Assembly (NCBI GenBank): GCA_026785785.1 | Contig: JAJAZI010000171.1 | Coordinates: 1-10,700, forward strand | From: Microbacteriaceae bacterium | GTDB lineage: Bacteria; Actinomycetota; Actinomycetes; Actinomycetales; Microbacteriaceae | DNA: 10,700 nt | Direction: 5' to 3' | Shown here: in pieces, positions 1-10,700 of the stretch | Layout: the number at the start of each line of letters is the position of its first letter | How positions within the stretch are numbered: position 1 is the first letter of the stretch | Notes under the pieces: model-generated | Databases searched by the model: none | The model's input: only the letters and a program-made list of their open reading frames with translations | What the model was told of the DNA's origin: nothing | Translations under genes and position numbers: made by a program

Positions 1-2721
1 CTCATCTTCGTCGGTCGCGCCGACGACCAGGTCAAGCTCGGCGGGCGCCGGATCGAGCTCGGCGAGGTCGAGGCCGCCCTGCAGGGTCTCGACGGAGTGG
101 CCGGCGCGGCGGCGGCCGTGCAGGTCTCGGCATCCGGCAACCACCTCCTCGTCGGCTATCTCGCCCTCACCGAGCCCACGATGCTGTTCGACCGGGTCGC
201 CGCCGTCGAGCGCCTCCGCGCCGAGCTCCCGGCCGCGCTCGTGCCGCTGCTCGCGATCGTCGACTCGATGCCGACGAAGACCTCGGGCAAGGTCGACCGC
301 GCGGCCCTGCCCTGGCCGCTCCCGACCACGGTGGGGGAGCCGGCGGATGCGGGATTGACCGCGACTGCGAGCTGGCTCGCCGACAAATGGACCGCGATCC
401 TCGGCGTTCCCGTCGCCGGTCCCGACGACGACTTCTTCGCCCAGGGAGGTGGCTCCCTCTCCGCGGCCCAGCTGGTCTCCGCCATCCGCGAGCGCTTCGC
501 CGACACCCGCGTCTCGGACATCTACGACCACCCGCGGATCGGCTCCCTGGCCGACGAGCTCGACGGACGGGTGCCCCTCGCGCGGGCGAAGTCCCGCGAG
601 GTGCTGCCGACTCCACGCTCGAGCCGGATCGCGCAGACGCTGCTCGGCATCCCGCTGCACATCCTCGCCGGGGCCAGGTGGCTCGTCTACCTCGCCGCCG
701 CCAACAACCTGCTCGCGCTCTGGGGGCAACTCGCGGTGCTGCCGCAGCTGTCCTGGTGGTGGATCGGCGTCGGATTCCTGATCTTCGTCACCCCGCCCGG
801 CAAGATGGCGCTCACGGTCGTCGCCGCCCGGCTGCTGCTGCGCGGACTCGTGCCCGGAAACTACCGGCGCGGCGGGTCGGTGCACCTGCGGCTGTGGCTC
901 GCCGAACAGGTCGCGCTGCTCGTGAACCCCGCGAGCGCCGCTGGCGCCCCCTGGATCAGCTACTACGCGCGGGCGCTCGGCGCCCGCATCGGCGTCGGCG
1001 TCGACCTGCACACGCTACCGCCGGTCACGGGGATGCTGTCGATCGGGCAGGGGGCGTCGGTCGAACCGGAGGCCGACCTGTCCGGATACTGGATCGACGG
1101 CGACGTCCTCCGTCTCGGCCACGTTCACATCGGCGCCGAGTCCAGGGTCGGCTCGCGCAGCACCCTGCTCGGCGGGACGAGCATCGGCCGCGGCTCCGAG
1201 GTCGAGCCCGGCTCCGCCGTCTCCGGGCGGGTGCCGGCGGGGGAGCGCTGGGCGGGTTCCCCCGCGGGGCGCGTCGGCTCCGCGAAGAAGTCCTGGCCGG
1301 CGGAGCGCCCGCCCCGCGGCACCCGCTGGCTCATCGCCTACGCGGTCGGTTCGGTCGCGATGGCCGCAATGCCGGCATCCGCGGCCCTGCTCGGCGTGGT
1401 CATCGTCGGAGCCGCGATCGGCCAGGCCGAGACTCCGGTCGAGGCGGTCACCCGCGCTGCTCTGGCCACCCCGCTCGCGACTGTCGTCGCGGGGCTGGCC
1501 TTCGCGCTCACGGTGATCGCGGTCGTGCGCCTGCTCGGAATCGGCCTCGTGGACGGGCACTTCCCGGTGCGCAGCCGCATCGGCTGCCAGGTCTGGATGA
1601 CCGAGCGCATCCTCGACAGCGCGAGGACCCTGCTGTTCCCGCTCTACGCGAGTCTCATCACGCCGTTCTGGCTGCGTGCCCTCGGTGCGAAGGTCGGCGC
1701 GAACGTCGAGGCGTCTACCGTGCTGCTTATCCCGTCGCTCACCACAATTGCGCCCGGCGCCTTCCTCGCCGACGACACCATGGTCGCCACCTACGAGCTC
1801 GGCGGCGGCTGGCTGCGCATCGGCCGCGCCAAGATCGGCCGGCGCGCGTTCCTCGGCAACAGCGGGATGATCGGGCCGGGCCGCACCGTGCCGCGCAACG
1901 GCCTCGTCGCGGTGCTGTCCGCGACCCCGCGCAAGGCCAAGCGCGGCTCAAGCTGGCTCGGCAACCCGCCCGTGCGGCTGCGACGCACCGTTACCGACTT
2001 CGACGAGGCGCGCACCTTCCACCCGCCGACGCGCCTCCGCGTGGCGCGCGCCCTCTGGGAGGTGCTGCGGATCGTGCCGGTCATCGTGACGGCGCTCATC
2101 GCGCTCGGCGTGCTCGTCACCCTCGGCGTGCTCTGGTCAGTGCTCGGGCTCGGCGCCACCGTCGCGCTGTCGGGAGTGGTCATGCTCGCGGCTGGCGCGG
2201 TCGCGGCAGGGGCGACCACGTGCGCGAAGTGGCTCTTCGTGGGCCGGATCACGGTCTCCGAGCATCCGCTCTGGTCGTCGTTCATCTGGCGCAACGAGGT
2301 CGCCGACACCTTCGTCGAGATGGTCGCCCGCCCCTGGTTCGCCTCGGCCGCCACCGGCACTCCCGCGCTCGCGTTCTGGCTACGCACCCTCGGCGCGCGC
2401 GTGGGCCGCGGCGTGTGGTGCGAGTCGTACTGGTTGCCGGAGGCAGACCTCGTCACGATCGCGGACGGGGCAACCGTGAACCGCGGATGCGTCGTGCAGA
2501 CGCACCTGTTCCACGACCGGGTCATGCAGCTCGACACTGTTGAGCTGCGTGCCGGATCGACCCTCGGGCCGCACACGGTCATCCTTCCGGCCGCATCGCT
2601 CGACGAGAACGCGACCGTCGGACCAGCCTCGCTCGTGATGCGCGGTGAGCGGGTGCCGGGCGGATCGCTCTGGGCGGGCAACCCGATCGCGCCGTGGCAA
2701 TCGCCGCCGTGGAATACTTGA
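1..2721 (+). CDS. Pls/PosA-family non-ribosomal peptide synthetase, 3' part (5' end outside window)
   Basis: The frame is open from base 1, so the gene starts upstream; 906 residues are visible. Seen: the end of an adenylation domain, with A8-like GRADDQVKLGGRRIELGEVE (residues 6-25) and the A10 lysine in TKTSGKVDR (Lys97). A carrier domain follows, DDDFFAQGGGSLSAAQL, with the phosphopantetheine serine at Ser152. Then come three blocks of membrane helices (about 210-275, 441-510, 684-748), each followed by a glycine-rich hexapeptide-like domain (about 327-425, 561-665, 796-900). This is the architecture of poly-epsilon-lysine synthetase (Pls) and PosA relatives (TIGR02353-type C-terminus), which make isopeptide-linked amino acid polymers at the membrane. 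Pls is about 1300 residues, so roughly 400 are missing here. The substrate cannot be read because the specificity pocket lies upstream. The next gene follows at once and a phosphopantetheinyl transferase is nearby. Family assignment is firm; the product is unknown. Confidence 0.92.
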   Translation, partial: LIFVGRADDQVKLGGRRIELGEVEAALQGLDGVAGAAAAVQVSASGNHLLVGYLALTEPTMLFDRVAAVERLRAELPAALVPLLAIVDSMPTKTSGKVDRAALPWPLPTTVGEPADAGLTATASWLADKWTAILGVPVAGPDDDFFAQGGGSLSAAQLVSAIRERFADTRVSDIYDHPRIGSLADELDGRVPLARAKSREVLPTPRSSRIAQTLLGIPLHILAGARWLVYLAAANNLLALWGQLAVLPQLSWWWIGVGFLIFVTPPGKMALTVVAARLLLRGLVPGNYRRGGSVHLRLWLAEQVALLVNPASAAGAPWISYYARALGARIGVGVDLHTLPPVTGMLSIGQGASVEPEADLSGYWIDGDVLRLGHVHIGAESRVGSRSTLLGGTSIGRGSEVEPGSAVSGRVPAGERWAGSPAGRVGSAKKSWPAERPPRGTRWLIAYAVGSVAMAAMPASAALLGVVIVGAAIGQAETPVEAVTRAALATPLATVVAGLAFALTVIAVVRLLGIGLVDGHFPVRSRIGCQVWMTERILDSARTLLFPLYASLITPFWLRALGAKVGANVEASTVLLIPSLTTIAPGAFLADDTMVATYELGGGWLRIGRAKIGRRAFLGNSGMIGPGRTVPRNGLVAVLSATPRKAKRGSSWLGNPPVRLRRTVTDFDEARTFHPPTRLRVARALWEVLRIVPVIVTALIALGVLVTLGVLWSVLGLGATVALSGVVMLAAGAVAAGATTCAKWLFVGRITVSEHPLWSSFIWRNEVADTFVEMVARPWFASAATGTPALAFWLRTLGARVGRGVWCESYWLPEADLVTIADGATVNRGCVVQTHLFHDRVMQLDTVELRAGSTLGPHTVILPAASLDENATVGPASLVMRGERVPGGSLWAGNPIAPWQSPPWNT

Positions 2722-2726
2722 CCACC

Positions 2727-4052
2727 GTGCCGTCCAGATCATCGAGCTACGGCTCCGCGTCACTCGGAGACGAGTACCTGCCGGCGACCGGCAACGGCGG
2801 ATACACCGTCGAGCACTACGACCTCGACCTCGACTACCGCGTCGCGACGAACCGGCTCTCGGCGACGGCCGTCATTACGGCTCGCGCCACCATGCGGCTG
2901 GAGCGCTTCAGCCTCGACTTCGCCAGCCTGAGCGTCGAGAAGGTCACCGTCAACGGGGCGAGGCCGCGCAAGACGACCCACGCCAGTCGCAAGCTCACCG
3001 TCATGCTCGACACCGCGATCGAGAACGGGGACGAGTTCGAGATCGTCGTGCGTTATCGTGGGGCGCCGCGCCCGATCCGCGGCCGCTGGGGCGACCTCGG
3101 CTGGGAGGAGCTCACCGACGGGGTGCTGGTCGCGAGCCAGCCGAACGGCGCGGCATCCTGGTTCCCCAGCAACGATCACCCGAGCGACAAGGCGACCTAC
3201 CGCATCTCACTCGCCTGCGAGTCGCCCTACCTCGTCGTCGCCAACGGCGGCCTCGTCTCCCGCACGGCGCGGTCGGGCCGCACGACGTGGGTGTACGAGT
3301 CGGCCGAACCGATGGCGAGCTACCTGGCGACGATCCAGATCGGCCGGTACGTCTCCACGCAGCTCGGCACCGAGCCCGTGGTCCAGACGGCCTACTTTCC
3401 GCCTAGCCTCGCGCGCGTCGTGAAGGTCGACTTCGAGCGCCTCGGTGACATGTTCGCGCTGTTCTGCGACCGGTTCGGGCCGTACCCGTTCTCGTCGTAC
3501 TCCGTCGTGGTCACCGCCGACGAGCTGGAGATCCCGCTCGAGGCGCAGGGCCTCGCCGTCTTCGGACGCAACCACATCGACGGCGCCCACGGCAGCGACC
3601 GGCTCATCGCGCACGAGCTCGCCCACCAGTGGTTCGGCAACAGCCTCACGATCACCCGGTGGCGCGACATCTGGCTGCACGAGGGCTTTGCCTGCTATTC
3701 GGAATGGTTGTGGGCGCAGGAGAGCGGCGGCCCGGCGATCGGGACGAGCGCCGCGGAGCACTACCGCATGATCGACGCGCTGCCCCAGGACATCGTCGTC
3801 GGCGACCCGGGGCCGGGGGCGATGTTCGACGACCGGATCTACAAGCGCGGGGCGCTCGCCGTGCATGCCGTGCGGGTGCAGTTGGGCGACCGGAGATTCT
3901 TCGAGGCGCTCCGGGCGTTCGTTGCCGCGCACCGCCACGCCGGCATCTCCGCCGCCGGATTCGTGAGTTTCTTCGCTGGCTACGCGGACGACGGCGTCAT
4001 CGAGCAGCTCGTTGACCGCTGGGTGTTCAGCGCGGCGCTGCCGCCGCTCTGA
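2727..4052 (+). CDS. M1-family zinc metallopeptidase (short actinobacterial type)
   Basis: A predicted zinc aminopeptidase-like enzyme of 441 residues, about half the length of classical PepN because the C-terminal helical domain is absent. Seen: the zinc site HELAH (His296, Glu297, His300), then exactly 18 residues to the third ligand Glu319 in WLHEGFA, i.e. HExxH-x18-E, and the conserved tyrosine in IYKRGA (Tyr372). Where most M1 exopeptidases have GAMEN, this protein has LEAQG (residues 271-275). The N-terminal GGYTVEHYDLDLDYRV is the usual start of the M1 beta-sheet domain. No signal peptide is evident, so it is probably cytoplasmic. The start is uncertain: in-frame GTG codons lie at 2694, 2709 and 2727, and none has a strong ribosome site. 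I chose 2727, which begins 5 bases after the NRPS stop with a weak GGAA at 2711-2714; the others would overlap the NRPS. Tight spacing implies co-transcription and perhaps translational coupling. A role in processing the NRPS product is only a guess. Confidence 0.9.
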   Translation: MPSRSSSYGSASLGDEYLPATGNGGYTVEHYDLDLDYRVATNRLSATAVITARATMRLERFSLDFASLSVEKVTVNGARPRKTTHASRKLTVMLDTAIENGDEFEIVVRYRGAPRPIRGRWGDLGWEELTDGVLVASQPNGAASWFPSNDHPSDKATYRISLACESPYLVVANGGLVSRTARSGRTTWVYESAEPMASYLATIQIGRYVSTQLGTEPVVQTAYFPPSLARVVKVDFERLGDMFALFCDRFGPYPFSSYSVVVTADELEIPLEAQGLAVFGRNHIDGAHGSDRLIAHELAHQWFGNSLTITRWRDIWLHEGFACYSEWLWAQESGGPAIGTSAAEHYRMIDALPQDIVVGDPGPGAMFDDRIYKRGALAVHAVRVQLGDRRFFEALRAFVAAHRHAGISAAGFVSFFAGYADDGVIEQLVDRWVFSAALPPL

Positions 4053-4053
4053 T

Positions 4054-4731
4054 TCAGGGAGCCGCGGACTGGTGCGCGGCAGGCGCGAGCTGTCGGATGT
4101 CCGGCCGCGCGGGTGCGATCACCGCGATCGTGCCGACCAGGCCGGGCGCGACATCGAGTGCACTGAGGTGAAACGACCCGACGGGGACCGGCGCTCCCGG
4201 CCAACCGGCGAGGGCGGGGCGGGGCGGCGAGCCTCGCATCGGTCCCACGAACGACACCTCGAGTTCGCGCGGGTCCACGCGCAAGCCGTCGCCCGTCGCC
4301 TTCAGCACGGCCTCCTTCGCGGTCCACATTGCGGTGCGGAGGGCGGGGGAGCCGTCCGCGCTGGCCAGCCGTTCGCGCTCGGGCGGTCCGAACGCGACGT
4401 CGTCGAGTCCCGCATGCGATGCCGCGGCGACACTCTCGATGTCGATGCCGACGGGCCCGGCGAACGATACCGCGATCGCCACGGATCGCCCGGCACGGCT
4501 CAGGCTCAGATCGATGCCCTCCACGCCGCGCTCGCCGCAGCGGACGAGAACCGGACGGCCGTGGTCGCCCCCGCACCGTGCACATCGCCGTGAGACCACC
4601 ACCTCGGCCCGGGGCACGCCCGTGACCTCGGCCACGACGCCCACCAGCAGCATTCGGTCACCGGCGGTCGTCGTCGCGCGCTCGCACACCAGGACCACGA
4701 CGTGCGGGGCGGATGCCGCGGGCACAGTCAT
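4054..4731 (-). CDS. 4'-phosphopantetheinyl transferase, Sfp type
   Basis: Predicted to transfer the phosphopantetheine arm of coenzyme A to a carrier-protein serine. The protein is 225 residues, typical for the Sfp superfamily. Seen: a CARCGGDHGRP segment near the N-terminus, as in many Sfp-type enzymes; the metal-binding GIDIE (Asp97, Glu99); and WTAKEAVLKATGDGL (Trp136, Lys139, Glu140), matching the family WxxKEA signature. The histidine often found in the SxSHS motif is absent, where the sequence reads DLSLSRAG. An upstream in-frame start at 4800 would overlap the neighbouring gene. I prefer ATG 4731, which has AGGG eight bases upstream. Its stop lies one base from the stop of the convergent peptidase gene, leaving no room for a terminator. 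It sits 34 bases downstream of the coiled-coil gene on the same strand. The likely substrate is the carrier domain of the nearby NRPS, by proximity; it could also serve other synthases in the cell. Confidence 0.9.
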   Translation of the reverse strand: MTVPAASAPHVVVLVCERATTTAGDRMLLVGVVAEVTGVPRAEVVVSRRCARCGGDHGRPVLVRCGERGVEGIDLSLSRAGRSVAIAVSFAGPVGIDIESVAAASHAGLDDVAFGPPERERLASADGSPALRTAMWTAKEAVLKATGDGLRVDPRELEVSFVGPMRGSPPRPALAGWPGAPVPVGSFHLSALDVAPGLVGTIAVIAPARPDIRQLAPAAHQSAAP

Positions 4732-4739
4732 CGACGGGT

Positions 4740-4743
4740 CCCT
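4740..4743 (-). promoter_or_regulatory. Ribosome binding site deciding the transferase start
   Basis: On the minus strand AGGG precedes ATG 4731 with an eight-base gap. This favours 4731 over the in-frame upstream codon at 4800, which would extend the gene into the 3' end of the coiled-coil gene. Confidence 0.45.
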
Positions 4744-4765
4744 GTGGCGCTCGTCCAAGGCGCTC

Positions 4766-6070
4766 TCACAGGAGGTCGTAGCGCGCGAGCGCGTCGGCAT
4801 CCCGCGAATAAGTGGCTGAGCCGCGCGCAGTGTCGAGCGCGATGACGGGGTCGGATTCCGCCTCGGCGAGCGCGAGCAGTCGCTCGGCCTCGGCCAGCCG
4901 GGTGCGCGCCTCGGCGCCCGCCCGCCGTCCGGACATGTAGGCGCGGGTCGTGTCGATCTGGCTCCGCGCGGTGAGAAGCGCGCCGTCGAGCGCCTCGCGG
5001 GCGTGTGTCAGCCGCTGCTGCTGGTTACGCGCCCCCGCGAGGGCGGTGTCGAGCGCGTCGGCCGTCGCCCGGATGCGCGCGATCGCGGCATCCGGATCCG
5101 CGGCGCCGTTCGTCGCCACCTCCGCGAGGGTGCGCTCGACCCAGGCGATCGCCTCGGCGATGGCCGAACCGGTGGCCGGATCGGGTGGGGAGTCGCGCAC
5201 TGCCCTGGCCGCGGCGGCCTCGGAGCGTGCTTCGTCGATAAGCGACGCGAGCCGCCCGCTCGCCGACTCGATCGCGGCGGCGTGCCGCTCGATCTCGTCC
5301 AGCAGCTGCGCCGCGCGGCGGGCGTGCTGCTCGCTCGAGCGGATCGACGCCGACACCGCGGTCGCTCCCGATTCATCGAGGTTCTCCGCGGCGCTGTCGG
5401 CGCTGGTCCGGGCGGCGTCGAGCAGCCGCTCCGCCTCGTCGGGGCTCTCGCGCACCGGCGCGATGGCGGCCGGCGCGTACCGGGAGCGCAGACGCGTGAG
5501 CAGCTCGCGGGCCCCGGGAAGCCGGCCCTGCTCCCGGTCGATGAGCTCGCGCACCGCCTGGAGGTCGTGCGGGGCGTCGCGCTCGGAGCCGCGCAGGGAG
5601 TCGAAGACTGCACGCTCGGCCGCGAGACGCTCGCTCGCCGTCTCGCAGAGCATTAAGATCTGCCCGTTCCACTCGCGCTGCTGGGCCGGGGTGTCGGGAA
5701 CGGAGTCATCGAGCTGCTGTTTGAGCGCGAAGGCGCTCGCGAGGTTCGCGCTCGCGCTCGCCAGCGCCGCAGCGAGCGCGGAGGCGCGCGCGTCGCCGAA
5801 CTGCGCGACGGCGAAGCCCAGCTCGTCGTGCATCGAGGCGACTTCATCGTCCAGACGCACGAGCGCGATATTCCCGCGGCGGCCGATCTCATCCCGCTTC
5901 GGGGCGGTGCGGGCGGCTCGGCCGCGGCGGATGAGCACGGTGAAACCGACCGCGAGCGCGGCCGCGAACAGCAGCCCGATCGTGATCGCGCCGATCCCGG
6001 CACCGACGACCGCGCTCGAGTCGCCGACCGCGGTCAGCTCGAGAACGGTGAGGGCTGGCATGTCGAGCAT
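4766..6070 (-). CDS. Membrane-anchored coiled-coil protein, homologous to the C-terminal half of TPM-domain proteins (TPM domain absent)
   Basis: Predicted 434-residue protein with one membrane helix (residues about 20-47), followed by RRGRAARTAPKR and then a long Ala/Glu/Arg-rich helical region to the end. The positive residues after the helix suggest a short outer N-terminus and a cytoplasmic coiled coil. The segment RRGNIALVRLDDEV, then ELGFAVAQFGD, LKQQLDD and FDSLRGSERDAP, resembles the cytoplasmic part of actinobacterial TPM-domain (YgcG-like) proteins. Those normally carry a signal peptide and a TPM domain of roughly 150 residues before the membrane helix; here only about 20 residues precede it. 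The divergent helicase-like gene begins 148 bases away, so there is no room for a missing domain. Start chosen at ATG 6070 because AGGA lies eight bases upstream; GTG 6094 and ATG 6061 are alternatives. Probably co-transcribed with the transferase downstream. Function unknown. Confidence 0.82.
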   Translation of the reverse strand: MLDMPALTVLELTAVGDSSAVVGAGIGAITIGLLFAAALAVGFTVLIRRGRAARTAPKRDEIGRRGNIALVRLDDEVASMHDELGFAVAQFGDARASALAAALASASANLASAFALKQQLDDSVPDTPAQQREWNGQILMLCETASERLAAERAVFDSLRGSERDAPHDLQAVRELIDREQGRLPGARELLTRLRSRYAPAAIAPVRESPDEAERLLDAARTSADSAAENLDESGATAVSASIRSSEQHARRAAQLLDEIERHAAAIESASGRLASLIDEARSEAAAARAVRDSPPDPATGSAIAEAIAWVERTLAEVATNGAADPDAAIARIRATADALDTALAGARNQQQRLTHAREALDGALLTARSQIDTTRAYMSGRRAGAEARTRLAEAERLLALAEAESDPVIALDTARGSATYSRDADALARYDLL

Positions 6071-6218
6071 TTTACGTGTCCTGTGAAACTCCACGCCTTC
6101 TCCCAGCGGATTCAGCGTTCCCGCTTATGGTGTCGATGTGTGGCGTGCTGAGAAACGAGAAGAGACCGGGGACTCCCTGTCCGAATCCGACGAGAACCCC
6201 ACCCATGCGGAGAGACAA
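6071..6218. promoter_or_regulatory. Divergent intergenic region with both ribosome binding sites
   Basis: This 148-base gap separates two divergently transcribed genes and must hold both promoters, unless the helicase-like gene starts at the alternative GTG 6138. On the minus strand AGGA at 6079-6082 serves ATG 6070. A TATGGT at 6126-6131 could be a plus-strand -10 element, but I see no convincing -35 at the right spacing. No operator-like palindrome stands out. Confidence 0.4.
6209..6214 (+). promoter_or_regulatory. Ribosome binding site deciding the helicase-like start
   Basis: GGAGAG lies at 6209-6214, so its GGAG core is six bases before GTG 6219. The upstream in-frame GTG at 6138 has no comparable site, and the 27 extra residues it would add look low in complexity and unlike a conserved N-terminus. 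Confidence 0.6.
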
Positions 6219-9200
6219 GTGACCAGTCCCTACTCCCTCGTGTCGGGCGACCCGTCGTACCGGCTCGGAAACGTTGCCGAACCGACCTGGACGGGCTGGC
6301 GCGACGAGCTGTCCCGCGGCGGCGGCCGCTCGCCGCTGCTCCACTTCGTCGATGCCCCCCGCACCCGCATCGAGTTGAGCACGACCCATCCGGGCGGGCT
6401 CGCGCAGTTCATCACCGGCAAGACGACCCTGCTGTCCAGCCTCATCCGTGACGACCTCGCCCTCCGCGCGGCCAAGATGGCCGCCAGCGCGATCGCAACC
6501 AAGGGCGTCGAGCTCGCCACCGCACGGGGGATCGATTCCGTGCATCTCGGCATCGGCATCGCCGACTGGCAATTCGAGTCACAGGACTTCTGCGCGCCCA
6601 TCCTGCTGCGCCCGCTCGCCATCCGCCGCTACGGCCGCGACTTCGAGCTGCGACTGCGCGGTGTCGCCGTCCTGAACCCCGAGCTCGAGCGCGCTCTCAA
6701 GACCCAGTTCGACATCCAGCTCGACGCCGCCGCGTTCGCGGCCCTCGCCGAGTCCGACGGCTCGTTCAAGCCCAACCCGGTCATCGACCGGCTGCGCGGA
6801 CTCACCTCGCATCTCGAATGGTTCAACGTGCAGCCGAGGCTCGTCGTCTCGTCGTTCGCCGACGTGCAGAACCGCATGGTGCTGGATGCCGCCGAGCTCG
6901 AGCATCCGATTCTCGACGCGCTCGCCAGCAACGCCAATGCCCGCTGGAGTGTGAAGGAGGGCTTCGCGCCGGTCGAGCCCCAGCACCAGGACCTCCGCTC
7001 GCCCGAGACCGACACGCTGCTGCTCGACGCCGACGCGGAGCAGGAGAATGTCGTCGCGCAGATCGCCGCCGGCAACTCCGTCGTTGTCAAGACGCTCCCC
7101 GGCACCGGCGGCACTCAGACGATCGTCAACGCGATCGGCAGCCTGGTCGCCCAGAACAAGCGCGTGCTCATCGTGAGCCCGCGCCGCTCGAGCCTGTCCG
7201 GCATCCGAGCGCGCCTCGGCGAGATAGGGCTTGCCGGCCTCGCGGTCGCACCGTCGACGCTCCGGCGCGACCTGATCAAGTCGATCGGGCGCAACGAGAA
7301 GGCGAAGCAGCCGCAGATCGGCGAGGTCGACGAGGCGCTCGTGCGACTGCGCCGCGTGCTGCTCGACTACCGGGGCGCGATCGCCAAGGACGACGACGTG
7401 CTCGGAATCTCGGTGCTCGACTGCCTGAGCGAGCTGTCCCGGCTCGCCCTCCTGCCCGAGCCGCCGTCGACGACGGTGCGTCTCAGTCGCAGCTCAGTCG
7501 AGGCCCTCGCGAGCGACCGCGTCGAGGCCGCGAACGCGATGGTGCACGCCGCGCAGCTCGGTGAGTTCAAGTACGGGCCTGGCGACTCGCCCTGGTACGG
7601 GGCGACCTTCGTGACGAGCAAGGAGGCGAGCGGCGCCCACGCCCTCGCCAAGCGGTTGCACCAGACCGACCTGCCCAGGCTGCTCGTGCGCGCCGGCGAG
7701 CTCATCGGTGCGACCCGAATGCGCCCGTTCGAGAACATCTCGCAGCTCGGCGTCTACCTGCGCCTGCTCATCGAGATCCGCGACACCCTCGACCGGTTCC
7801 TGCCCGTCGTGTTCGACCGCTCGCTGAGCGAGCTGATCACCGCCACCGCGGCGCGTCGGGATTCGCCCGAGATGTCCGGTGCGAACCGTCGCCGGCTGAA
7901 GAAGCTCGCCCGCGAGTACGCGCGGCCCGGAGTGCACGTCAGCGACCTCCACGACAACCTCGTGCGTATCCAGCAGCAGAGGCTGCTCTGGCAGCGCTTC
8001 GTCGCCGCGGGGGCGCCGCCGGAGATCCCCGTGGGCATCGCCGACGTGCAGGCCGCCTGGCAGCGCGTCGAGCAGGACCTCGCGTCGCTGAACCGGCAGC
8101 TCAAGGTCACCGCGCCGAGCGAACAGCTCGTCAACCTGCCCATCGCAGAGCTCGGCGACCGGCTGACTGCCCTCGCCGCGGAGTCCGATGTTCTGAACAA
8201 CCTGCAGGAGCGAGTGGAGATTCGCCAGCGCCTGCGGATGCTCGAGCTGGACGGCCTCATCGCCGACCTCGCGTCGCGGCACGTGCCGGCCGACGAGGTC
8301 GCGTCCGAACTCGAATTGTCGTGGTGGCAGTCGGCCCTGGAGTCGCTGCTCGAATCCGATCGCGCCCTGCTCGGCGCGAACACGTCGGTGCTCGACCGGC
8401 TCGAGGCGGACTTCCGCCTCGTCGACGAGGCGCACGCCGCGGGCAGCGCCCAACTACTCGGCTGGCAGCTCGCGGAGAACTGGAAAATCGGGCTCGTCGA
8501 CTGGCCGGACGAGGCCGCCGCGCTCAAGATGGCGCTGCGCCGGCCGGCGATCTCGTCGTCGATCCTGCAGGCTGTCGCGCCGCACCTCGCCCGCGCCATC
8601 GCGCCCGTCTGGCTCGCCTCGCCGTACGAGGTCGACAGCATCACCGACGCGATGTCGATCGACACCGTGATCCTCGTGGATGCCGGCGCGATGACCCTCG
8701 CCGAGAGCGTCGGGTCGATCAGGCGGGCGAAGCAGGCCGTCGCGTTCGGCGACCCCGTCACGCAGACCCCGGTACCGTTCCGCATCTCGATCGCGGACGA
8801 CTTCGAGCAGGCCGAGCCGCCCCCGGCCGAACCCGACCTCGACGCGGCACACGCCGACTCCGCGCTTGCGCGCCTGGGCACCCTGCTGCCGACCCTCTCG
8901 CTCACCCGCAGCTACCGGGCCGGCGGTGAGGACCTCGCCGAGCTCGTCAACCGACGGTTCTACGCGGGCAAGATCGACTCGCTTCCGTGGGCGGGATCGT
9001 TCCTCGGCCATCCGAGCCTGCGACTCGACTTCGTGCCCAACGGCCACGGCATGCCCGATCCCGACTCAGGGGCGGTCGAGAGCGTCGACGCCGAGGTCGA
9101 GCGCGTCGTCGAGCTCGTGCTCGAGCACGCCGCCATCCGCCCCCGCGAATCCCTCATGGTGATCACCGCGAGCGCCAAGCACGTCGTGCGGGTTCAGCAG

Positions 9201-9923
9201 GCCGTGCTGACTGCCGTCGCGACCCGTCCGGAGTACAACGAGTTCCTGCTCGGCGACTCCGAGGAGCCGTTCACCGTCACGACGATCGACCAGGCGGTGG
9301 CCGAGAGCCGCGACCGGGTGATCTTCTCGATCGGCTACGGACGAACCCCCCACGGACGGATGCTGTCGGACTTCGGCGCCCTCGGGCATCCGGGTGGCGA
9401 GCGCCTGCTCGCCGTCGCGATGACCCGTGCCCGGCGTTCAATGGTGATCGTGACCTGCTTCGAGCCATCCGACATCGATGAATCGCGCATGAACTACGGC
9501 GCGGTCGCCCTCGCCGAGATCCTCGCGGATGCGTCCGCGCGCCGACTCGATGAGGTCGCGACCCCGAGCACCGACCCGATGCTCGTCGACCTCGCTCGCC
9601 GACTCCGCCTTCGCGGCCTCCGCGTGGCCGTCGGGCACCGCGGCAAGCTCGGACTCGTCGCGTCGCACGGAGGCATGTGCCTCACGATCGAGACCGACTC
9701 GCGGCTCATGAGTGGATCGGGCGGCCAGGCGTCGAGCCTGCGCGAGTCGCTGCGCCTGCGCCCCGAGATGCTCCGCCGGCTGGGCTGGCACTACCTGCGC
9801 GTGCATTCGTTCGAGCTCTTCAGCAACCCGGACGCCGTCGCCGACCACATCGCGACGATGCTCGGTGTGAGTGAGGCGCCGCGCACCGAGCCGATCCGGA
9901 TCATTGACCGCTTACTCCAGTAG
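6219..9923 (+). CDS. DUF4011 / SF1 helicase-like / nuclease-fold protein with substituted catalytic motifs (Hhe-like)
   Basis: A 1234-residue protein in three parts. Residues about 10-180 resemble DUF4011 (WRDEL, SPLLHF, FCAPILLRPLAI, LNPELERALKTQFDIQL). An SF1 (UPF1/DNA2-like) helicase core follows: motif I as LPGTGGTQTI, where Gly298 replaces the Walker A lysine of GPPGTGKSQTI; a long helical insert; motif II as VILVDAGAM, where Ala822 replaces the glutamate of DEAS; GDPVTQTP in place of GDPKQLPP; LTRSYRAGGEDLAELVNRRFY as motif IV region; and VAMTRARR (Arg1070) as motif VI. The C-terminus matches a Vsr/DUF559-type nuclease fold (LRRLGWHYLRVHSFELFSNP), but Gly1145 stands at the first acidic position while Glu1158 and Asp1160 remain. 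DUF4011-helicase-Vsr proteins include the Hhe anti-phage system. The frame is intact and codon use matches the neighbours, so this is not decay. I infer no ATP hydrolysis or DNA cutting, but possibly nucleic-acid or partner binding. The small gene downstream is probably co-transcribed. Confidence 0.87.
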   Translation: MTSPYSLVSGDPSYRLGNVAEPTWTGWRDELSRGGGRSPLLHFVDAPRTRIELSTTHPGGLAQFITGKTTLLSSLIRDDLALRAAKMAASAIATKGVELATARGIDSVHLGIGIADWQFESQDFCAPILLRPLAIRRYGRDFELRLRGVAVLNPELERALKTQFDIQLDAAAFAALAESDGSFKPNPVIDRLRGLTSHLEWFNVQPRLVVSSFADVQNRMVLDAAELEHPILDALASNANARWSVKEGFAPVEPQHQDLRSPETDTLLLDADAEQENVVAQIAAGNSVVVKTLPGTGGTQTIVNAIGSLVAQNKRVLIVSPRRSSLSGIRARLGEIGLAGLAVAPSTLRRDLIKSIGRNEKAKQPQIGEVDEALVRLRRVLLDYRGAIAKDDDVLGISVLDCLSELSRLALLPEPPSTTVRLSRSSVEALASDRVEAANAMVHAAQLGEFKYGPGDSPWYGATFVTSKEASGAHALAKRLHQTDLPRLLVRAGELIGATRMRPFENISQLGVYLRLLIEIRDTLDRFLPVVFDRSLSELITATAARRDSPEMSGANRRRLKKLAREYARPGVHVSDLHDNLVRIQQQRLLWQRFVAAGAPPEIPVGIADVQAAWQRVEQDLASLNRQLKVTAPSEQLVNLPIAELGDRLTALAAESDVLNNLQERVEIRQRLRMLELDGLIADLASRHVPADEVASELELSWWQSALESLLESDRALLGANTSVLDRLEADFRLVDEAHAAGSAQLLGWQLAENWKIGLVDWPDEAAALKMALRRPAISSSILQAVAPHLARAIAPVWLASPYEVDSITDAMSIDTVILVDAGAMTLAESVGSIRRAKQAVAFGDPVTQTPVPFRISIADDFEQAEPPPAEPDLDAAHADSALARLGTLLPTLSLTRSYRAGGEDLAELVNRRFYAGKIDSLPWAGSFLGHPSLRLDFVPNGHGMPDPDSGAVESVDAEVERVVELVLEHAAIRPRESLMVITASAKHVVRVQQAVLTAVATRPEYNEFLLGDSEEPFTVTTIDQAVAESRDRVIFSIGYGRTPHGRMLSDFGALGHPGGERLLAVAMTRARRSMVIVTCFEPSDIDESRMNYGAVALAEILADASARRLDEVATPSTDPMLVDLARRLRLRGLRVAVGHRGKLGLVASHGGMCLTIETDSRLMSGSGGQASSLRESLRLRPEMLRRLGWHYLRVHSFELFSNPDAVADHIATMLGVSEAPRTEPIRIIDRLLQ

Positions 9924-9962
9924 CGACCTAACGGGGTCGGAGGCCGCGTCCGGTGGGGCTCC

Positions 9963-9969
9963 GGAGGAG
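9963..9969 (+). promoter_or_regulatory. Strong ribosome binding site of the small downstream gene
   Basis: GGAGGAG lies six bases before GTG 9976, a near-ideal Shine-Dalgarno sequence and spacing. It decides the start over the in-frame GTG 9871, which lies inside the upstream gene and has no such site. Confidence 0.65.
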
Positions 9970-9975
9970 TTCGGG

Positions 9976-10308
9976 GTGGGCGACGCGGCGACCGGCGAGG
10001 CCCCGCAACCCGATGTGGCGGTCGGCGAGGCCACGCGACGGGACGAGGTGGCCGGCGAGGCCACGCGACCCGATGAGGCGGCTGGCGAGGCCCCGCGACC
10101 CGATGTGGCGGCTGGCGAGGCCCCGCGACCCGATGTGGCGGCCGGCGAGGAAGTTGGCTCACGAGCAGCGGGCACGCGTCGGCGTCGGCGCGTCACGACA
10201 CAGGCCGTGCCGGGGAGCGATCCGACACCGCAGAAGGAGCCCGCGAGTCACGCCGAAAACGAGAACGACGAGCGACTGAAGGCCGACAAGCCGCCCCACT
10301 GGGGCTGA
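9976..10308 (+). CDS. Small disordered protein with 10-residue tandem repeats, unknown function
   Basis: I do not recognise the family with certainty. The protein is 110 residues with no membrane segment or signal peptide. Its first half is five 10-residue repeats of the form GEAPRPDVAA, low in complexity, acidic and Pro/Ala-rich, so probably unstructured. Next comes a basic patch, TRRRRRVTTQ, and the end is a charged tail, ENENDERLKADKPPHWG. That tail looks like a conserved short motif rather than random coding, which with the strong ribosome site is the main reason to call the gene real. The gap to the helicase-like stop is 52 bases, so the two are likely co-transcribed and may act together. 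A frame from GTG 9871 would add 35 residues and overlap the upstream gene, which I judge less likely. The basic patch could contact nucleic acid or an acidic partner; this is inference. Confidence 0.65.
   Translation: MGDAATGEAPQPDVAVGEATRRDEVAGEATRPDEAAGEAPRPDVAAGEAPRPDVAAGEEVGSRAAGTRRRRRVTTQAVPGSDPTPQKEPASHAENENDERLKADKPPHWG
9991..10150 (+). repeat. In-frame 30-bp tandem repeat, five units plus a 10-base partial
   Basis: Units begin at 9991, 10021, 10051, 10081 and 10111, each exactly 30 bases, with a partial sixth at 10141-10150. Every unit contains GGCGAGGCC. The units at 10081 and 10111 are identical over all 30 bases, which suggests recent duplication. The period is a multiple of three, so copy number can change without breaking the frame. 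There are no spacers, so it is not a CRISPR array. Confidence 0.92.
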
Positions 10309-10362
10309 CACGCGGTGCGTTGAGGAATAGGTGCGACCGCGAATGCGCGTTGTACCCGCGCG

Positions 10363-10392
10363 GAGCCGAAACCCGTACTCTCGGCGTGCGCG
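10363..10392 (+). repeat. 30-bp direct repeat, copy 1
   Basis: This 30-base sequence beginning GAGCCGAAACCCGTACTCTC recurs without mismatch at 10488-10517, 125 bases downstream; the flanking bases on both sides differ. Its first 24 bases are also nearly complementary to 10447-10470, so copy 1 can compete with copy 2 for the same pairing partner. Confidence 0.9.
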
Positions 10393-10430
10393 GCGTCGTC
10401 GGGCCCGGGCGCTGCGGTTGTGACTGCCAT

Positions 10431-10541
10431 TGGTGTCGGCCTTCGGCGCTGAGAGTACGGAAATCGGTTCTTCCCTGAGTCGGGTAAGAGCCGAAACCCG
10501 TACTCTCGGCGTGCGCGAGCGCGCGATTGGGGCCGACACCA
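10431..10541. repeat. 111-bp nested palindromic element
   Basis: The outer arms are perfect 11-base inverted repeats: TGGTGTCGGCC at 10431-10441 and GGCCGACACCA at 10531-10541. The inner arms at 10447-10470 and 10488-10511 are 24 bases each, pair at 19 positions plus two possible G-U pairs, and enclose a 17-base loop. The inner-arm mismatches form one three-base internal loop. The spacers between outer and inner arms are unequal (5 and 19 bases). There is no coding content and no T-run after it. It could be a REP-like or MITE-like element, or an RNA hairpin after the small gene. Confidence 0.75.
10488..10517 (+). repeat. 30-bp direct repeat, copy 2
   Basis: Identical over 30 bases to 10363-10392. 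Its first 24 bases form the right inner arm of the nested palindrome. Confidence 0.9.
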
Positions 10542-10573
10542 GGATCGTTGCACCTCGCCTGGGCACGCATATG

Positions 10574-10655
10574 CCCGCGAGGGCGCGTTCTACCCGCCAT
10601 GCTGCGTTTCACCCGCGATGGCGCGTTCTACCCGCCATACTGCGTTTCACCCGCG
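10574..10655 (+). repeat. 38-bp tandem repeat, two units plus a 6-base partial
   Basis: Units at 10574-10611 and 10612-10649 begin with CCCGCGA and share GCGCGTTCTACCCGCCAT, then CTGCGTTTCACC. Bases 10650-10655 repeat the first six bases of a third unit. Within the aligned units I find few differences, including G 10601 versus A 10639 and G 10581 versus T 10619. The motifs TACCCGCC and TTTCACCCGCG alternate along the array. There is no CRISPR-like spacer. Confidence 0.8.
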
Positions 10656-10700
10656 CGAGCCCGCGATGTGGGCGGGTATTTCTTGATTCGCGGGTGAAGC
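10644..10700. repeat. Inverted half-unit of the 38-bp repeat, reaching the window end
   Basis: GTTTCACCCGCG at 10644-10655 is matched on the opposite strand by CGCGGGTGAAGC at 10689-10700 (11 of 12 pair). A smaller inverted repeat, CCCGC at 10660-10664 with GCGGG at 10672-10676, lies between them and is followed by TATTTCTT. That inner hairpin could act as a weak plus-strand terminator, but the stem is only five or six pairs and the T-run is broken. The element probably continues beyond the window. Confidence 0.55.

Follow-up and report, generated by a model that had tools for sequence, protein, structure and literature searches.

The gene described here lies in a stretch of 10,700 nucleotides from a Microbacteriaceae bacterium (assembly GCA_026785785.1, contig JAJAZI010000171.1, positions 1 to 10,700; hereafter the window), in which it occupies positions 6138..9923 of the forward strand, the strand of all its features given below. 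It starts with GTG and encodes a DUF4011-type helicase/nuclease-like protein of superfamily 1B (SF1B), 1261 residues long, whose ATPase motifs are degenerate. The open reading frame (ORF) is uninterrupted over this length. A preliminary description of this DNA rightly reported an intact frame but placed its start 27 codons further in, giving 1234 codons; a majority consensus built from 121 sequences, the window protein and the best 120 of 1742 homologues, includes the upstream N-terminus, though a length of 1234 residues is recorded for at least one homologue (P0003).

A DUF4011-like stretch near the N-terminus (residues 110–184, 6465..6689; E 0.0075, under the Pfam cut-off) precedes a degenerate P-loop, TLPGTGGTQT (residues 319–328, 7092..7121), where Gly325 (codon 7110-7112) stands in the position of the catalytic lysine, as had been proposed for the segment LPGTGGTQTI. 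The middle helical region (residues 401–760, 7338..8417) is followed by a degenerate Walker B motif, DTVILVDAGAMT (residues 842–853, 8661..8696). Aligned to the intact FDVVVFDEASQ, this motif has Val847 (8676-8678) for the aspartate and Asp848 (8679-8681) for the catalytic glutamate. It had been described as degenerate in the segment VILVDAGAM, which is correct, but with the register off by one: Ala849 (8682-8684), taken there for the replacement of the glutamate, is the ordinary alanine of DEAS. Motif III, FGDPVTQTP (residues 870–878, 8745..8771), retains its GD and carries Thr875 for the glutamine, the departure already seen in GDPVTQTP, while the motif V glutamine has become Val1054. The AAA_12 (RecA2) region (residues 919–1106, 8892..9455) keeps the arginines of motif IV (Arg927) and motif VI (Arg1097 and Arg1099), regions already noted as remaining. 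The protein thus lacks the Walker A lysine and the Walker B Asp-Glu pair of an active superfamily 1 (SF1) helicase, and has the motif IV and VI arginines and the SF1B fold. In the MTES_1575/Vsr-like nuclease region (residues 1171–1240, 9648..9857; Pfam score 22.8 vs a cut-off of 38.2), the Asp-Glu-Asp set is incomplete, with Gly1172 for the first aspartate and with Glu1185 and Asp1187 retained.

Among the 121 sequences, residue 325 is glycine in 74, alanine in 42, serine in 5 and lysine in none, and the surrounding P321, G322, T323, G324, T326, Q327 and T328 are invariant. The loss of the ATPase signature from an intact frame is confirmed for the window protein, and a private mutation was rejected because homologues and family copies likewise lack the P-loop lysine. 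The invariance of the rest of the loop and the kept motif IV and VI arginines would fit a protein that still hydrolyses ATP, either by unusual chemistry or through a relocated lysine such as Lys318 before the loop, a position occupied by lysine in 113 and arginine in 5 of these 121 close homologues (the best listed). We regard this as unlikely. Deeper members of the same family have glutamate (L109), alanine (L110) or histidine (L111) at position 318, and some intact enzymes also carry a lysine there (VVKGPPGTGKS), so that Lys318 is not a new catalytic lysine. Moreover, the Walker B residues and the motif III and V glutamines have changed as well.

The motifs were read in 123 in-order copies, drawn from 20 families (families are labelled with f-numbers and loci with L-numbers), leaving out of the counts a split copy (L099), two paralogues (L107 and L162) and the window itself (L005). 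The P-loop was not assessable in L066, L156, L159 and L161, of which L066 and L159 were removed by hand, and family f13 is thus unjudged at this motif. The P-loop lysine is kept in 8 of the 119 judgeable in-order copies, namely 2/2 from f5 and 6/10 from f18, and is absent from the other 111; the out-of-order copies in the census keep the lysine, the Asp-Glu pair and the motif III glutamine in 12/12 cases. All 42 Microbacteriaceae copies lack the lysine and retain the motif IV arginine, and 41 of them have lost the first nuclease aspartate. The loss is therefore lineage-wide, as had been suspected, and canonical motifs, sought in close relatives as a refutation, are confined among the copies read to f5, some members of f18 and copies from other orders. 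Among 108 Bifidobacteriaceae loci, the 80 named ones that were kept likewise all lack the lysine; two of them have short frames, and a DEA string, at whatever place in the frame, occurs in 8. This family is f4, one copy of which is 100% identical to a Bifidobacterium criceti locus.

Outside the order, near full-length copies are present in at least ten genomes of family f102 and in one genome of f90, and the copies read, nine from f102 and the one from f90, have an arginine in place of the P-loop lysine and an altered Walker B. The f102 loci that carry the gene with this arginine are L280, L283, L300, L302, L304 and L307-L312. One f24 copy has intact motifs.

The first nuclease aspartate is kept in 3/4 copies of f7, 9/10 of f6 and 2/4 of f16, with the glutamate in 3, 5 and 2 of these respectively, and none of them has the P-loop lysine. 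Such copies could indicate that what survives in some families is the nuclease activity, with the dead motor serving only as a DNA-binding platform. As an account of the protein we think this quite improbable, given that the first aspartate is lost from the window protein and 40 others of the 42 in its family (it is kept in one), and that f3, f4, f9 and f14 have lost both the aspartate and the glutamate.

The gene was found in 297 of the 299 Microbacteriaceae genomes sampled, in 85/85 genera, and in 292 of the 297 genomes sampled of the order. A phylum-wide draw gave matches in 29/296 genomes, 8 of them in the order; the remaining 21 include several partial matches. The gene is retained in genomes of about 0.8-0.9 Mb, and neither the patchy distribution nor the variable location of mobile defence genes is seen. 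Phage and plasmid origins were also rejected: one phage record matched, at 35% coverage, and the 299 plasmid records stay under 60% identity throughout, with coverage of the protein always short of 80%.

Phylogenetic trees were built with FastTree (SH-like supports), the four motif stretches being removed for the gene tree. The order forms one clade in the gene tree (support 1.0), and of the 15 families represented by at least two rows, 13 form clades, f3 and f14 being mixed. The lysine-keeping f5 and f18 group together with support of 0.977 and 0.994 in two trees, and all the other in-order families form a lysine-less clade with support of 0.776 in one tree and 0.992 in another. Family f102 falls with f90 outside the order clade, the support for their join being only 0.667. 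Parsimony on the presence of the lysine, with a lysine at the root, requires a minimum of four changes: one for f102/f90, one for the large clade and two inside f18.

The location of the gene is also conserved. The channel gene mscL lies no more than 1.3 kb 3' of it in 23/31 neighbourhoods from 12/17 families, in convergent orientation in 20 of the 23, and two f102 genomes share the same arrangement. The block around the two genes includes what we take, from their translations, to be SAF, FmdB, 5-formyltetrahydrofolate cyclo-ligase and GalU-like genes. The window contig stops at 10700, short of the expected mscL, which is present in the collinear relative L115. We conclude that the gene belongs to the core genome and has been inherited mostly vertically, which sets it apart from typical defence genes.

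The suggestion that the protein is a relative of a defence ATPase holds, as it matches ProA, PDC-S37 and Hhe, models of anti-phage helicase-nucleases, but the gene does not behave like a typical defence gene. It could still be a defence protein, a core and ATP-independent detector of foreign nucleic acid. In addition to the homology itself, one study reports a core DUF4011 gene, present in all of its P. aeruginosa isolates, at the edge of a defence hotspot (PMC10250203). We nonetheless find a defence role doubtful: it is unusual for a defence gene to occur in nearly every genome of an order, to be inherited mostly vertically and to be retained in genomes of 0.8-0.9 Mb, and both catalytic ends expected in ProA-type defence are degenerate in the window.

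Selection on the gene, which had been proposed as a check, was estimated by the NG86 method. The ratio of nonsynonymous to synonymous rates (dN/dS) is 0.096 for the window gene against its nearest relative and lies between 0.03 and 0.28 in 11 of 12 pairs (10 lysine-less and one intact, from f5), the remaining pair being saturated; the gene is under purifying selection. Seven family rows have frames open for at least 1260 residues despite one stop each, and the other matches listed have no stops. Modal conservation was compared between 12 lysine-less families and 11 intact copies, as means without a significance test from sets that differ in make-up. It is lower in the lysine-less set in the motor stretches (0.49 vs 0.85 at residues 321–360, 0.50 vs 0.80 at 841–880 and 0.36 vs 0.65 at 921–960) and shows no drop in the middle region (about 0.50 vs 0.52 at 401–760). 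Slow decay of a pseudogene might be suspected from the many missing active-site residues and from the deeper erosion in f3, f4, f9, f14 and f20. This reading was rejected as very unlikely in view of the long open frames among the matches listed, the low dN/dS values, the invariant residues scattered over the protein and its retention in reduced genomes.

Directly 3' of the big gene, on the same strand, is a small ORF (9976..10308; 110 residues from GTG 9976, or 145 from GTG 9871) with the conserved C-terminus NDERLKADKPPHWG. The consensus of this tail is [ND]DxRLxxDxPPHWG, and the window stretch 10162-10305 matches the family profile. A PPHW tail was found by pattern at 94 of the 123 in-order loci, in 15 families, as a separate frame in 81 cases and fused in 13, where the big protein itself ends in it (L035, L037-L040, L044, L051, L085, L088, L138-L140 and L159). 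The two genes overlap through an [AG]TGA start/stop in 5/17 loci, including loci of the lysine-keeping f5 and f18; in the window, with candidate starts at 9871 and 9976, there is no such overlap. The coupling and the fusions suggest that the PPHW protein is likely a partner of the big protein. No PPHW frame was found at 29 of the 123 in-order loci, of which six had at least 300 bases downstream (L071, L072, L083, L087, L137 and L156). The tail profile matches 84/118 genomes of the class (E up to 0.01). Outside the order, the pattern matches at 1/12 loci (L100), and the tail gene adjoins mscL in 11 of 18 loci read, two of which also have the big gene, behind the tail gene. Five tail sequences searched against Pfam and NCBIfam matched no model. 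A profile search had suggested that f15 is without the small gene, which was rejected when recounting by pattern revealed one in L157. Variation of the reading frame among relatives speaks against a programmed frameshift into the small ORF. The window ORF also contains a 30-bp tandem repeat of 5.5 copies (9987-10150).

Four further genes were noticed in the window. A Pls/PosA-type non-ribosomal peptide synthetase, reduced by the contig start to its C-terminal part (1-2721, +; TIGR02353, 711 bits), is followed by a short M1-family peptidase of 452 residues (2694-4052, +) and, near the synthetase and perhaps its activator, a 4'-phosphopantetheinyl transferase (4054-4800, -). An apparent membrane-anchored coiled-coil protein with weak family matches only (4766-6094, -) is divergent from the helicase-like gene.

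Taken together, these data show a near-universal, mostly vertically inherited and selected relative of helicase-nucleases, from which the catalytic residues have been lost more than once. We propose that a DUF4011-helicase-Vsr nuclease of the ProA/PDC-S37 type, with working motifs, was fixed beside mscL in an ancestor of the order and f102 and became a core gene, a course supported by distribution, synteny and the tree. Most sampled descendants, including all the Microbacteriaceae copies read, have since lost the Walker A lysine, the Walker B Asp/Glu and the motif III glutamine, and many also nuclease residues, with the middle helical domain and the long open frame kept. Because the catalytic residues are lost while the middle domain and the frame are kept, the protein most likely works without ATP-driven translocation; it would bind DNA or RNA as an Upf1/IGHMBP2/Dna2-like clamp in a sensing or scaffolding role, with the PPHW protein, whose gene follows immediately or is fused to the big one, as its likely partner. 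We infer that it does not hydrolyse ATP, binds nucleic acid and works with the PPHW protein. The earlier proposal of a protein kept for a non-hydrolytic role is partly supported. We give a probability of roughly 0.55 to this reading, in which a helicase-nuclease of defence type has been domesticated and retained as a scaffold or sensor that binds nucleic acid without hydrolysing ATP, an outcome comparable to RecC or AddB.

Several observations weigh against it. The small gene was not found at any of the four f20 loci, with 489-880 bases downstream, nor at L137, with 1506 bases, so the partnership is not universal; it is also present without the big gene outside the order, and adjacent overlapping genes can fuse without any joint function. 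No mscL was found in 8 of the 31 neighbourhoods, although two f6 loci and an f20 locus among those without it nevertheless retain other genes of the block, and mscL lies within the 4-kb flanks at only 11 of the 80 Bifidobacteriaceae loci, not being found at 69. Conservation is lower in the lysine-less set in N-terminal stretches too (0.40 vs 0.65 at residues 41–80 and 0.49 vs 0.68 at 121–160) and not in the motor alone, which cuts against a simple story, as does the finding that the nuclease can degenerate independently of the motor, since some ATPase-intact copies outside the order (cl22, ph45b and ph47) have altered nuclease residues. Nucleotide may be bound without the lysine, and the motif IV and VI arginines persist in the window's family. 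Finally, 'scaffold' was picked by analogy.

More tentatively, and at somewhat less than even odds, the two genes could form an actinobacterial core module in which a helicase-nuclease of defence origin, disarmed independently at least four times under purifying selection, and a class-wide PPHW protein make up an ATP-independent clamp for nucleic-acid surveillance or genome maintenance; a second helicase lineage would then have arrived more than once at an outcome like that of RecC. Database records name such proteins AAA-family ATPase, DEAD/DEAH-box helicase or DNA helicase, and anti-phage models match them, whereas most in-order copies read are without the ATPase residues. Orthologues with and without a working motor set, sharing one locus, offer a natural series on the change from motor to scaffold and, as nearly all members of a large order, Bifidobacterium among them, carry the gene, its role is directly testable. 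The family is not named in any title among the matches listed from the open PMC literature on DUF4011, Hhe, ProA and inactive SF1 helicases, and the gene was not identifiable in the accessible part of a B. breve essential-gene study (PMC5514069).

Among known systems, ProA and PDC-S37 are the best family matches. The description of the protein as Hhe-like was sound in relating it to anti-phage helicase-nucleases but not in making Hhe the closest of them: ProA (NF058533) scores 307.1 bits and Hhe (NF042953) 132.1 in NCBIfam, against cut-offs of 1500 and 2000, and PDC-S37 scores 315 bits and Hhe 129 in PADLOC. Hhe matches at low score over the same C-terminal half and is more distant than ProA. 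Even the intact f5 copy reaches only 777 bits with the ProA model. The profile search that had been called for did find DUF4011 and AAA_12, along with MTES_1575, but all under the Pfam cut-offs. The best stretches (residues 601–1242 for ProA and 629–1242 for PDC-S37) span the middle domain, RecA2 and the nuclease, residues 601–1242 aligning to ProA 1056-1703 with an E-value of 2.4e-91, which marks these regions as homologous. The ProA model, however, has 1903 positions, its best stretch stopping at 1703, compared with 1261 residues without catalytic motifs in the window protein, which also differs from ProA and PDC-S37 in being encoded by a core gene. The SF1B entries for IGHMBP2, Upf1, Dna2, senataxin and Aquarius are named helicases, whereas the window protein is without the residues for ATPase activity and contains an extended helical region in its middle. 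A likeness in working only, offered as a comparison with no membership claimed, may exist with RecC of RecBCD and AddB of AddAB. In two reports, nuclease-like and helicase-like modules are redeployed for DNA processing in these proteins, a nuclease-like domain of RecC without catalytic features guiding single-stranded DNA and a helicase-like region of AddB recognising Chi (PMC1185551, PMC4824097). RecC and AddB act in complexes with helicase-nuclease partners, whereas the window protein is linked only to the small PPHW gene.

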